From positions 1-34,967 of IMG/VR virus record IMGVR_UViG_3300034110_000253: a DNA stretch of 34,967 nucleotides, one strand, 5' to 3'. The stretch is from a virus. A program made the position numbers and the translations under genes. The notes below the pieces were generated by a model. That model did not search any database, was not told where the DNA came from, and saw only the letters and a program-made list of their open reading frames with translations. Below are positions 25,039-32,891 of the stretch, piece after piece. Positions within the stretch are counted from its first letter, which is position 1. Each line of letters opens with the position of its first letter.

Positions 25039-25193
25039 GCGATCCTCCCAAAAATCCGGGCGATCCATCCCCGGCGTGGCTCCTGCATCGGCTGGATCGG
25101 GCCGAAGTGGTGCAGCCGTTGCGCGGCTGAGTTATGGCCTGTGCGGGCGTCTGCGAGGCCGTGGGGCGCGCTTGAACGAAACGTGCGGATCAT
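25035..25193 (-). CDS. Small basic protein (52 aa) of minus block A
   Basis: ATGA overlaps at both ends tie this ORF to the QueD-like gene upstream and the 224-aa gene downstream. The peptide starts MIRTFRSSAPHGLADA and ends with PRRGWIARIFGRIA, an amphipathic, positively charged helix. No family recognised. Coupling on both sides is the support. Confidence 0.5.
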   Translation of the reverse strand: MIRTFRSSAPHGLADARTGHNSAAQRLHHFGPIQPMQEPRRGWIARIFGRIA

Positions 25194-25501
25194 GCTGGAA
25201 ACCTTTCAGCGATGGCAAAAAGCCCCTCTAACGGGCGTCGAACCTCGACCTTGTGGCAATCCATGCCAAGCAGGATGGCGGTGGCCAAAGCCTCGCCCCA
25301 TGCGGTTTCGTCGCCCAAAACCGTATGGTCAAAAATCGAGAGATAGTTGGTTAGCGCGGCCTTCTTCTTGACCGCACATTCCCCTTCCGGCCACCATGCG
25401 ACGACTTCCCATGTGTGGCCGTGCAAAGCCCCGTCCCGGCTCCGATGCGCCGCCGAGACTATCGCGGACGCGCCGGTTAAGACCTTCAAGTTTGTCGGCA
25501 T
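25190..25501 (-). CDS. QueD-like 6-carboxy-tetrahydropterin synthase family protein
   Basis: 103 residues from the ATG at 25501, the codon just ahead of the first strand (NLKVLTGASAIVSAAHR); starts at 25528 and 25561 are possible but add no family-like residues. The zinc ligands are present as SAAHR and LHGHTW, and FDHTVLGD plus AWGEALATAI correspond to the DH and E-LA positions of the QueD/PTPS fold. QueD converts dihydroneopterin triphosphate into CPH4 on the way to preQ0. Oddities: the loop between the first His and HGH is short and lacks the catalytic Cys of QueD, and the C-terminal Glu of the family seems replaced (VEVRRPLEG). So it may be a variant enzyme. It overlaps the DpdA-like frame by 173 bases. 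Confidence 0.75.
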   Translation of the reverse strand: MPTNLKVLTGASAIVSAAHRSRDGALHGHTWEVVAWWPEGECAVKKKAALTNYLSIFDHTVLGDETAWGEALATAILLGMDCHKVEVRRPLEGLFAIAERFPA

Positions 25502-26160
25502 AGGCCCGCCGTCCGCGCCATGGGTCATCGGTGAATAGGGGACTGTCACGACGCCATCCATTCTGCGCTAGGCTGGTGCTGTCCGCACTGGTGAACGGAT
25601 AATCGTGCGCCACCATCACGCCGCGCATCATGTGCAACACTGGCCAGCGATTGCCGAGAACCGCCGCAACCTCGTCCATGCGCGCGTGGTATTCCGGGCA
25701 GTCCAGATGCTTGCCCTTGCCGGTCCAGCCTAAGCAAACCCGGTCGAACTGATCGCACAGGCGCAGCAAACGATCTAGCGGCCCGTCCATGTGCCAGAGC
25801 GGCGCGCCCTTCTGCCCAAATGGCCAATCTGTCAGCAGTGAATCGTTGATCTGTGACGGTGCGCCCGGCGCATCCGGTATCACTGCCCAGCGGCCCGGTT
25901 GAAACAGGCGCGGTTCGAGCCACTCGAAATAGGGCGACCAATCCTGCCGGATGAACCATTCCTCGCCGCGCTTCTGTGCTGCGCGCCATTCGGAATAAGC
26001 GCCGTTGTCGAAACATGATGGCCGGGCTGATAGCCTCGACTGCCTCCACATCGTCCGGACGCCAGAAACTGACGCACATTGCCCGCCCGGCGCAAACGTC
26101 AAGCAAGGCTGCGCGCGGCGTCATGGGGGTGCCGTGGTGAATGATCGGCGCGCGTCTCAT
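25329..26160 (-). CDS. TGT/DpdA-like protein, read across an apparent +1 frameshift
   Basis: Two overlapping frames together give one protein of about 276 residues. Frame one (26160 to 26011) ends ..AISPAIMF, and frame two continues DNGAYSEWRAAQKRG from 26009. The start at 26160 is fixed by an ATGA overlap. Motifs after the join: DNGAYSEW (51-58), WAVIPDAP (91-98), then FDRVCLGWTGKGK, LHMMRG and SADSTSLAQN (191-200). These recall the tRNA-guanine transglycosylase TIM barrel, with D51 and D96 as candidate key Asp residues; phage relatives (DpdA) exchange guanine in DNA for a 7-deazaguanine. Assignment is by motif recall plus the adjacent QueD-like gene. The C-terminal 60 residues lie over queD and may not be functional. 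Confidence 0.6.
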
Positions 26161-26267
26161 GCAATACACGCCAACACCGGCAGCATCGCCACGATGGCCA
26201 GCACAAGCGCAAACTCGCGCAGGAATTGCGCACGGTTGGCACGGTATAGTTCAAGGGCGGTTTTCAT
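26157..26267 (-). CDS. Single-TM small protein (36 aa)
   Basis: A short ORF between two coupled genes; it starts MKTALELYRANRAQFLRE and continues with a hydrophobic segment FALVLAIVAMLPVLACIA that could span the membrane. Both ends form ATGA overlaps with neighbours, which supports translation. No family is recognisable at this length. Confidence 0.5.
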   Translation of the reverse strand: MKTALELYRANRAQFLREFALVLAIVAMLPVLACIA

Positions 26268-29148: not shown

Positions 29149-29852
29149 ACGGTCGCAACGTCTGCAATCTGGTTGGCAAAGTTTGCTTCCAGAATTTCAA
29201 TCCGCCGTTGCAGCGGGATAAATTCCTCGGGCATCCCTATGCCTGTGCTCCACCATTCGGGTAATTTTTCCTTAACCTGCGCGATAACGTCGCGGGCTTC
29301 CTTGCTGTCCCGAAAGGCGCACCACATATCCCAATCGCCGCAGGCTTCCATTTCCCGGACAAAGCCGCGCACCGCGTTTTTCAAGGCGCTGTGGGCGCTT
29401 TCCTTTTTCGCTGGCGGCGCATAGGTGGCCAACTCTCCGGTGTTGTGGTGGTCTATGTCGTCTTTTTCGCCAGTCGATATTTGGAAAAGCGACCGTAAAA
29501 ATTGCTTTAGCGCATAGGATTGTGCCGATCCAAAAGCTTGGCTACCCATGCTGGCAGGGACCATGATCGACCGATGCAGGGGGCCTATGCTTTCGCCATC
29601 CTTTGACACGGTAAAGGCAAAGCGCATGAGAAGCATTTTTTGCGGGCCGTTCTTGCCTGGAACGTCTAGCACTTCCATGCTTTCCTCGTCCTGCAAAATA
29701 TTTAGCCCATGCTTGGCGCAGATCGGGCGCGTTAGGTCGAGAAAGGCATCAATTCCGGCAAAGTTGTAATTGCCGTGCTGGTTGCGATCATCCTTTGCCA
29801 GCGGCTTTACGTCAGACATTGCGGCGGCAATCGCTGCATTGATTTTAGACAT
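29145..29852 (-). CDS. erf: ERF-family single-strand annealing protein
   Basis: 235 residues. The N-terminal half holds the ERF family motifs: HGNYNFAGIDAFLDLTRPI, CAKHGLNILQDEES, and GSAQSYALKQFLRSLFQIST followed by GEKDDID. ERF proteins promote annealing of complementary single strands in phage recombination and circularisation. CAGGAG (minus strand) lies ahead of the ATG at 29852, which overlaps the end of the HNH gene. The C-terminal part (about 150-235) is helical. It belongs with ninB, rusA and the DUF968-like protein. Confidence 0.9.
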   Translation of the reverse strand: MSKINAAIAAAMSDVKPLAKDDRNQHGNYNFAGIDAFLDLTRPICAKHGLNILQDEESMEVLDVPGKNGPQKMLLMRFAFTVSKDGESIGPLHRSIMVPASMGSQAFGSAQSYALKQFLRSLFQISTGEKDDIDHHNTGELATYAPPAKKESAHSALKNAVRGFVREMEACGDWDMWCAFRDSKEARDVIAQVKEKLPEWWSTGIGMPEEFIPLQRRIEILEANFANQIADVATV

Positions 29853-30381
29853 TCCAAGATACTCCTGTAATAGCGCGATGAGCGGTCATTGCCGTGACCC
29901 CAAACATCTGCGCAATGCGCTTGAATGAAAGGCTTGTGTTGCTGCGAAGTTCACGCATGGCGATTACATCGGCGCGGGTTAATCGCGCCTGCCCATTTCT
30001 TTCGCCAATAGGACTTGTCCCATGAAGATTCTTGTCGGCGGCGTTCTGCGCTGGGGTTCCCCACGCCAGATTGTCGTAACGATTATTGGATAGATCGCCG
30101 TCAAGATGCCTGACTTGATGCTTTTCGCTGGGGCGCGGGCCATTAAACAATTCGCAAACGACATAATGAATGTATGATCGCCCATCTGGGAACATAATGG
30201 AACGATAGCCAATCCCAGCACGTCCTCCCCTTAGCAACCGCCGAGATCGTGAAGACCACACTTCGCCTAATTCACTGACAAAATAGCCACGGTTGCCCCG
30301 CACTTGGAACCAGCCAACACCCTTCGCGTCACCTTTGGCCAGCGCGCCAGCCAGTTCGCCTATCTCGGGTGACGTTTCCAT
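29845..30381 (-). CDS. HNH homing endonuclease (NUMOD4, HNH_3 and HTH)
   Basis: 178 residues from the ATG at 30381, preceded by GAGGAG; longer upstream readings pass through the repeat tract and are not real. A NUMOD4-type part (KGVGWFQVRGNRGYFVSELG), then HNH_3 (YVVCELFNGPRPSEKHQVRH followed by LDGDLSNNRYDNLAWGTPAQN) and a C-terminal HTH (LTRADVIAMRELRSNTSLS, then IAQMFGVTAMTAHRAITG). This domain order is typical of free-standing mobile HNH enzymes. It sits between the Gly-rich gene and erf and overlaps the erf start, so it is cotranslated rather than disruptive. Confidence 0.88.
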   Translation of the reverse strand: METSPEIGELAGALAKGDAKGVGWFQVRGNRGYFVSELGEVWSSRSRRLLRGGRAGIGYRSIMFPDGRSYIHYVVCELFNGPRPSEKHQVRHLDGDLSNNRYDNLAWGTPAQNAADKNLHGTSPIGERNGQARLTRADVIAMRELRSNTSLSFKRIAQMFGVTAMTAHRAITGVSWNV

Positions 30382-30382
30382 T

Positions 30383-30721
30383 TCAACTCTCCTCAATAAC
30401 AGTAATGCCGCCATCGCCATAGCCATAGCCAGAGCCATCGCCATAGCCATAGCCATAGCCATCGCCATAGCCATCGCCAGAGCCAGAGCCAGAGCCAGAG
30501 CCATCGCCATAGCCATCGCCATAGCCATCGCCAGAGCCAGAGCCATCGCCATCGCCATAGCCAGAGCCATCGCCATAGCCATAGCCATAGCCAGAGCCAT
30601 AGCCAGAGCCAGAGCCATCGCCATCGCCATAGCCAGAGCCATCGCCATAGCCATCGCCATAGCCATAGCCAGAGCCATAGCCAGAGCCAATTGGCTTCTC
30701 GCCAAAGATCATCTGCGCCAT
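30383..30721 (-). CDS. Gly-Tyr/Asp/Ser repeat protein (112 aa)
   Basis: 112 residues: a short normal start (MAQMIFGEKPI), about 90 residues in which every second one is Gly and the other is Tyr, Asp or Ser, and a normal end (GGITVIEES). The stop overlaps the HNH gene start region (one base apart), and the ATG follows the DUF6948 stop by one base, so it is in the minus operon. Such proteins with GYG/GDG repeats occur in other phages, always as unknowns. The tract is built on hexamer-like DNA repeats, which can grow or shrink by slippage. It probably forms flexible or beta-rich structure; function not known. Confidence 0.78.
   Translation of the reverse strand: MAQMIFGEKPIGSGYGSGYGYGDGYGDGSGYGDGDGSGSGYGSGYGYGYGDGSGYGDGDGSGSGDGYGDGYGDGSGSGSGSGDGYGDGYGYGYGDGSGYGYGDGGITVIEES
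30409..30688 (-). repeat. Degenerate hexanucleotide tract (GGC + TAT/GAT/TCT)
   Basis: About 280 bases made only of GGC alternating with TAT, GAT or TCT (minus strand), inside the Gly-rich gene. All six frames are open because no stop can form, which creates long false ORFs on both strands. The order of the three variable codons is irregular, so this is not a simple tandem array. Confidence 0.85.
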
Positions 30722-31920: not shown

Positions 31921-31968
31921 ATGAACATTACCCATTTAACGCCATTGCGTCCGGCTTGCAAGCCATGA
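31921..31968 (+). CDS. Leader ORF coupled to the rep gene (15 aa)
   Basis: GGAG eight bases before this ATG and a TGA overlapping the rep ATG (31965) make a tiny coupled ORF, MNITHLTPLRPACKP. The rep start itself has no SD, so this short frame may exist to feed ribosomes into it. It might equally be a real peptide. Confidence 0.35.
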   Translation: MNITHLTPLRPACKP

Positions 31969-32891
31969 CCGCTTTACCGTGGTTCAGGCTGTATCATCGT
32001 ATTGTTGATGATCCCAAACTCAAACTGCTTGCGTTTGAGGATCGCTGGCATTTTGTCTCGCTTTGCTGCCTGACGGCGAGCGGGACGCTAGACGAGCCTG
32101 ATCCGGATTTGCGGATACGCATGGTCGCGGTAACCATGGGCATACAACTGACAGAATTAGATGAGGTGAGACGGAGACTTGTCGCCGTTGGTTTGATTGG
32201 GCCGGACATGAAGCCGCACGCTTGGGATAAATTACAGTTCAAAGGGGATTCATCAAACGAGCGCGTCAAACGGTATCGGCAAACGCGAAAAGAGAGGGGC
32301 CTAATAGCGCAATGGCAACCCACCAAGGGGCTGCGCCAGATGATCTATGAGCGGGATGGAAATGCATGTGTCTATTGTGGATCAAGCGATGATTTGACCT
32401 TAGACCACAAGGTTCCGGAGATGCATGGTGGGGATCATTCTGAGTCCAATTTGCAAACCGCATGTCGCATATGCAACGCAAAAAAGCGGGACTTAACACA
32501 CGAGGAATACACGAAAAGAAACACAAGTAACGGGCATGTAGCGTTACAGTCACGCCATAAGACTACAGAGACAGAAGAAGAAACAGAGAATAAGGGCTTA
32601 CGCCCTTGTGCATCTGACGATGCACGCGAACTTGTCGATGATTGGAATAGCTTGGCGGGTGATCTAGGTTTGCCCAAGGTTGCCAAGTTGACCGACCAGC
32701 GGCGCAGGCATATCAAGACGGGACTGAGGACCAACACGCTGGAGGAATGGCAATCAGCTTTCCGCGCCGTCCGGCGTTCCCGTTTCCTCCAGGGTGAAAA
32801 CAAGACCGGCTGGAAAGCCAATTTTGACTTTCTGTTGCAGCCGTCCAGCTTCGCAAAACTGATAGAGGGATATTACGATGGCAAAGTTTGA
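31965..32891 (+). CDS. Phage replication protein with an inserted HNH domain
   Basis: 308 residues from the ATG at 31965 (a TTG at 31956 adds three). The N-terminus, TALPWFRLYHRIVDDPKLK then LLAFEDRWHFVSLCCL, is the winged-helix start of a phage replication-initiation family, and the C-terminal end, LTDQRRRHIKTGLRTNT then FLQGENKTGWKANFDFLL and SSFAKLIEGYY, is its usual C-terminal part. Between them, residues about 121-182 are an HNH domain: C135-x2-C138, D147-H148, and C167-x2-C170 (NACVYCGSSDDLTLDHK, then HGGDHSESNLQTACRICN). In relatives this middle stretch is a plain linker, which here still survives as KTTETEEETEN. So the protein is a fusion or an in-frame invasion; the HNH may be a nicking activity or a relic. 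Confidence 0.8.
   Translation: MTALPWFRLYHRIVDDPKLKLLAFEDRWHFVSLCCLTASGTLDEPDPDLRIRMVAVTMGIQLTELDEVRRRLVAVGLIGPDMKPHAWDKLQFKGDSSNERVKRYRQTRKERGLIAQWQPTKGLRQMIYERDGNACVYCGSSDDLTLDHKVPEMHGGDHSESNLQTACRICNAKKRDLTHEEYTKRNTSNGHVALQSRHKTTETEEETENKGLRPCASDDARELVDDWNSLAGDLGLPKVAKLTDQRRRHIKTGLRTNTLEEWQSAFRAVRRSRFLQGENKTGWKANFDFLLQPSSFAKLIEGYYDGKV

Follow-up and report, generated by a model that had tools for sequence, protein, structure and literature searches.

A conserved, presumably programmed +1 frameshift in a DpdA-like transglycosylase gene of a bacterial virus

Introduction

The RF2 gene (prfB) is a bacterial case in which a +1 shift is required for the full-length product. UUU_CGN is the +1 motif of plant amalgaviruses (PMC5052127), and the influenza A PA-X shift site reads UCC UUU CGU (PMC8310308). 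The +1 cases in phages that have been reviewed concern structural genes of Listeria phages (PMC5009743).

The DpdA protein of phage 9g modifies DNA, and the DNA of Salmonella phage 7-11, which has a lone DpdA, carries a little dADG, with only 0.02% of G modified (PMC6884629). The same study left open the role of "singleton" DpdA proteins and reported that His196 is missing from DpdA2. A TGT-family protein has also been remodeled for protein-linked deazaguanine in the Cap10 system (PMC11996544).

The locus in this report is from IMG/VR virus record IMGVR_UViG_3300034110_000253; the window is the whole stretch of DNA analyzed, positions 1 to 34,967 of that record (34,967 bases). It shares the active-site motifs of the phage DpdA proteins of 9g and 7-11. 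It differs from both in that its gene would need a +1 frameshift, in its clamp-like tail, in the Cys-less QueD-fold protein encoded alongside, and in having no phage preQ0 pathway. The conserved +1 shift is a new element, absent from an initial annotation of the window, and it is the most unusual feature of the locus.

Gene layout and conservation of the frame change

The DpdA-like gene and the QueD-fold gene are on the minus strand, at 26160-25190 (Table 1). The initial annotation described a TGT/DpdA-like gene next to a QueD-like gene, citing the motifs DNGAYSEW, WAVIPD, and SADSTS in one protein and AAHR and HGHTW in the other. All are present, in minus-strand ORFs 25329-26102 and 25190-25561, respectively, and are evidently not due to chance, because the former ORF matches phrog_887 (queuine tRNA-ribosyltransferase; E = 6e-24) and the model of the latter is QueD-like. 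Residues 1-50 of the TGT-like protein are read from a separate frame, one base behind, in ORF 25546-26169, which encodes the conserved N-terminus IIHHGTPMTPRAALLDVCAGRAMCVSFWRPDDVEAVEAISPAIMF. The two frames are joined via a +1 shift at ATG-TTT-C-GAC (26016-26007, with the shift itself at 26013-26009); skipping the C gives a joined translation of 276 aa, and with the N-terminus joined the phrog_887 match improves to E = 8e-28. The overlap with the QueD-like gene in the window is up to 233 nt.

Table 1. Features of the locus (window coordinates, except in the last row)
Feature	Position	Strand	Remarks
DpdA-like gene, 5' part, frame 0, residues 1-50	26011..26160	-	MRRAPIIHHGTP...SPAIMF, joined translation
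Presumed +1 frameshift site, ATG TTT C GAC	26007..26016	-	P-site UUU, A-site CGA, C at 26010 skipped
Synonymous-site constraint block, GTG GAG ... GAG ... AGC CCY GCC	26017..26052	-	Directly upstream of shift
DpdA-like gene, 3' part, +1 frame, residues 51-276	25329..26009	-	DNGAYSEW...QLSLDF
C-terminal QLSLDF, beta-clamp-binding-like peptide	25332..25349	-	C-terminal motif count across family clusters
QueD-fold protein without catalytic Cys	25190..25561	-	Start 25561, 25549, or 25501
DpdA-like/VUT neighborhoods in Pseudanabaena phage Pam5 and Rhizobium phage RHph_X2_30	L005 4803-5336 and L003 1919-2449

The same +1 shift is found in 19 sequences: the window, one Sphingobium genome, and all 17 viral contigs yielded by a scan with the pattern ATGTTYCGAYAAYGGNGCNTWY, every one of which has a DpdA-like gene with its N-terminus in frame 0 and the remainder in the +1 frame. 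A scan of genome contigs gave nine matches, one of them a genuine homolog, in Sphingobium sp. DEHP117, which is also shifted and was matched with a pattern leaving the skipped base free. A wider viral scan, again with no constraint on the skipped base, returned another 95 sites, almost all of them in relatives with an unbroken frame and none in a new shifted copy, and 398 genomes of the Sphingobium host's family held no shifted copy beyond the one already known.

ATG TTT CGAY is present in 19 of 19 shifted records, with GAC as the first codon after the slip in 18. TTT is invariant: TTC, which was permitted by the pattern and encodes the same residue, has no occurrences, an outcome with a chance of 8e-8 from codon usage when relatedness is ignored; p-values of this kind are too small, because some of the shifted records are almost identical to one another. 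Clean ORFs are present in more than 100 unshifted relatives, the close ones being the MY clade and records L160, L171, and L175. The N-terminus is conserved across all shifted and unshifted relatives, and the joined protein aligns with the unshifted ones without a gap at the junction. In the tree, the 19 shifted rows lie inside one 100/100 group of 32, mixed with unshifted relatives and with three label changes; the simplest reading of this history would be a single gain followed by losses, with repeated gains also possible.

Purifying selection acts in both frames and switches frame exactly at the shift site. For the 25 codons that precede the site, frame 0 has a dN/dS of 0.12 and the other frames have values of about 2; for the roughly 190 codons that follow it, pN/pS is 1.55 when they are read in frame 0 but 0.33 when they are read in the +1 frame. 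The top-scoring 7-codon windows of synonymous conservation in the whole gene fall at codons -14 to 0 relative to the shift, a block in which individual codons are fixed (GTG 17/17, GAG 19/19, GAG 16/16); in the unshifted MY clade the GTG position is mixed, a relaxation of the constraint there.

The frame change, its conservation, and the pattern of selection are thus evident from the sequences themselves. A single extra T beside TT is a typical indel error, and damage to the gene, whether a sequencing or assembly error or decay, would explain one broken frame; but the identical shift recurs in 19 sequences with protein identities of roughly 60-75%, including one organism-assigned genome, selection is purifying on both sides of it, and the unshifted relatives are intact. 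Sequencing error and pseudogene were rejected on this conservation and selection, and damage is extremely unlikely. The frame-0 extension beyond the site was ruled out as a functional product by its pN/pS of 1.55 and by record L037, where a stop codon stands immediately 3' of CGA in frame 0, so that the extension is not the product being kept.

The gene might instead encode a split enzyme, two proteins with each frame initiating independently. The +1 frame is indeed open upstream, with start codons, in 6 of 19 records, the window among them; in the other 13, it has no start codon between the last stop and the catalytic DNGA motif. The junction is moreover located within a beta strand-motif unit, unbroken in every unshifted relative, and no selection is seen on the frame-0 extension, leaving two separate proteins very unlikely. 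We infer that ribosomes carry out the shift, which is conserved, presumably programmed, and of the UUU_CGN type, at UUU_CGA. Because 19 sequences keep exactly the same skip, it has the look of a switch built into the translation of a DNA-modifying enzyme.

The site is consistent with a simple slip. Re-pairing of the P-site tRNA from UUU to UUC in the +1 frame is possible, and CGA, which makes up 9 of 294 Arg codons (3.1%) in the window's main genes, is rare and by that token probably a slow codon in the A site. No support was found for a downstream RNA structure at the shift site (fold z about 0). An upstream stem found by RNAalifold was set aside, because it is rich in G-U pairs and takes in the slip site itself.

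In its P-site UUU, its rare A-site Arg codon of the CGN type, its +1 direction, and the absence of a detected downstream structure, the site is like those of PA-X and the amalgaviruses. It is unlike them in belonging to a bacterial virus and an enzyme gene, in its strong upstream synonymous constraint, and in that the shift would be required to obtain the active protein, where theirs yields an alternative C-terminus. As with RF2, the shift would be needed for the full-length protein, here an enzyme; unlike RF2, the A site holds a sense codon and not a stop, there is no known feedback, and a GGAGG-like sequence lies about 29 nt upstream, compared to 3 in RF2. Our coverage of the literature was partial, and within it no report of frameshifting in dpdA genes came to light. 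Confirmation of the shift would add a conserved site of +1 recoding in an enzyme gene carried by bacterial viruses, with a candidate upstream cis element and a motif type that, among the systems considered here, is otherwise described from eukaryotic RNA viruses. Gene finders would split or truncate genes shifted in this way, and therefore other DNA-modification genes may be hidden likewise.

Identity of the enzyme and its likely substrate

In the profile comparison with DpdA proposed in the initial annotation, the family profile matched phage 9g DpdA in HHalign with E = 8.5e-12 and probability 97.5 over 148 columns. The aligned active-site motifs (9g/window) are DSGAFS/DNGAYS, FHAGEP/WHMDGP, LGG/LGW, the His of VHG (His196/His176), and CDSS/ADST. 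Three Asp residues (D51, D96, and D193) and His176 are invariant in the family; D51, in DNGA, and D193, in ADST, align to D72 and D215 of 9g. The lone DpdA of Salmonella phage 7-11 was matched by tblastn with E = 6e-23, 38% identical over 58% of the ORF. The joined protein had no match in a sequence search of the PDB.

The structural comparison was made with an unshifted relative, 64% identical to the joined protein, whose AlphaFold model has a pLDDT of 89.9. Foldseek returned nothing with E below 0.001 for this model, and its structural list is headed by Cap10 (Z 14.2), followed by TGTs (Z 13.8) and unrelated PdxJ barrels (13.4). The fold alone is not decisive, because the unrelated barrels score within one Z unit.

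The window protein ends in QLSLDF, which resembles a sliding-clamp-binding peptide; the beta-clamp-binding consensus is about QLxLF or QLxLxF. Scored as Q-x-x-[LMIF]-(x)-[FLWIVMY], such an ending is present in 29 of 44 family clusters (formed at 70% identity), compared to a mean of 2.05 and a maximum of 6 after shuffling; it is missing in L023, L152, and the MY clade. The tail probably binds the sliding clamp. These tails favor DNA as the substrate, which the enzyme would meet near the replication fork. Together with the active-site motifs of 9g DpdA and the match to the lone DpdA of 7-11, the likely clamp-binding tail upholds the claim of a DpdA-type transglycosylase, and this part of the initial annotation is well supported. 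Through the tails, a connection between 7-deazaguanine insertion and the replication fork becomes testable, and they also bear on the role of the singleton DpdA proteins. In phage 9g itself (L194 2006-3960), dpdA adjoins the gene for a sliding clamp that the phage itself encodes, and the DpdA protein terminates in LQDLFDE.

The probable TGT-family fold, and the annotation of the PHROG and of several records as queuine tRNA-ribosyltransferase, would also fit an enzyme acting on tRNA, of either host or phage. We consider this unlikely, given the clamp-binding-like tails, the lack of a Pfam TGT domain match in the separate ORFs, and a profile match that is clearer to the DNA-modifying 9g DpdA than to host TGTs, for which HHalign gave no match in what is a weak test, only 2 TGT sequences being usable. 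A further alternative is that the enzyme attaches or holds deazaguanine on a protein, like Cap10 in type IV CBASS. The two would share a TGT-family barrel, and the Cap10-CdnD complex with NDG (9ntn) heads the structural matches, tied with the TGTs. Neither of the two proteins scanned with PADLOC matches a CBASS or other defense model, however, and the clamp-like tail and 9g DpdA motifs favor DNA, so that a Cap10-like role appears very improbable.

The QueD-fold neighbor

The neighbor's match to the Pfam PTPS family is sub-threshold (E = 0.066). Its AF2 model (pLDDT 93.5) matches E. coli QueD (4ntm) in Foldseek with a TM of 0.77 and E of about 1e-5. A pattern scan found no relatives of this protein, and a profile search found them. 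As in QueD/PTPS (COG0720), the fold is accompanied by three zinc-site histidines (H21, H29, and H31), invariant in the neighbor family. Unlike in QueD/PTPS, the catalytic Cys, found in P. aeruginosa 2oba four residues ahead of HGH, is replaced by D, E, T, G, I, or N, a loss that is plain in the alignment. The pterin-binding Glu, which we take to be E110 of E. coli QueD, is replaced by an invariant Arg (R91 in an alignment mapped by eye), and there is a new invariant Arg-Pro-x-Glu motif. The neighbors in L007-L009 are additionally without the Asp-His pair. A canonical QueD was rejected on the Cys and Glu positions.

The neighbor is adjacent to the DpdA-like gene in 12 of 19 shifted records and missing in 7, some of which may be fragments. 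It lies 3' of that gene in the shifted phages and 5' of it in several unshifted ones, and this adjacency on both sides suggests a functional link, though not a universal one (12/19).

In the pathway suggested by the initial annotation, the neighbor would be a working QueD that adds a preQ0 precursor. Besides the retained fold and zinc histidines, the family of the Sphingobium host speaks for this: 54 of 60 sampled Sphingomonadaceae genomes are without detectable QueD, though about 58 have QueC, and a phage QueD could therefore be of use. The substitutions at the Cys and pterin-binding Glu positions, the lost Asp-His pair in L007-L009, and the 7 shifted relatives without the neighbor speak against it; this part of the annotation did not hold up, and a working QueD is quite unlikely. 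A role as a partner of the DpdA-like enzyme is the more plausible one, and the Cys-less QueD-fold protein might perform a new step of deazaguanine chemistry.

Proposed mechanism and precursor supply

With moderate confidence, we favor the reading that the locus encodes a +1-shifted singleton DpdA-type transglycosylase that modifies phage DNA with host-made 7-deazaguanine. The enzyme would be small, a TGT-family barrel that lacks the zinc domain found in TGTs acting on tRNA, and it would be made in full only if ribosomes slip +1 at UUU_CGA, as tRNA-Phe exchanges its pairing with UUU for one with UUC and the rare CGA codon is still undecoded in the A site. It would most likely exchange guanines in phage DNA for a host-made 7-deazaguanine, either preQ0 or one of its derivatives; the C-terminal clamp-binding peptide would bring the enzyme to replicating DNA, and the modification would conceal the phage DNA from nucleases. 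The QueD-fold protein, its QueD chemistry lost, is more likely to be a partner, one that might for example bind or modify either the base or the enzyme, than a source of precursor. The low modification of 7-11 DNA, the nearest tested case, weighs against this explanation.

A bolder proposal is that the frameshift is a sensor, so that production of the enzyme would occur mainly in hosts that can provide its substrate, or would follow tRNA status. The post-slip GAC would be read by tRNA-Asp, whose wobble queuosine is present when the cell has 7-deazaguanine; modified tRNA-Asp might compete better against tRNA-Arg for CGA, a self-regulation much as in RF2. The coincidence of GAC with queuosine proves nothing, because the enzyme requires Asp there anyway, and we regard a sensor as improbable.

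As the initial annotation stated, FolE and QueC are absent from the window; neither is found in the window's record or in 19 related virus records, and the base would therefore have to come from the host. The Sphingobium host has genes for FolE, for QueC beside a QueE-like gene, and for TGT, which makes host supply plausible. Across the 60 Sphingomonadaceae genomes (G020 and G036-G094), QueC is strong in about 58 and PTPS/QueD is detectable in only 6; another protein may do the QueD step in this family. Pseudanabaena phage Pam5 and Rhizobium phage RHph_X2_30 both have a VUT/DUF165 gene, of the preQ0-transporter family, near the small DpdA-like gene, which again hints at a supply of deazaguanine.

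Two further features were observed elsewhere in the window. A GCCATA 6-base tandem repeat of about 47 copies (30410-30689) lies inside ORF 29845-30705, upstream of that ORF's HNH domain. ORF 31956-32891 combines replication-initiation-like and HNH endonuclease matches, perhaps through an HNH insertion.
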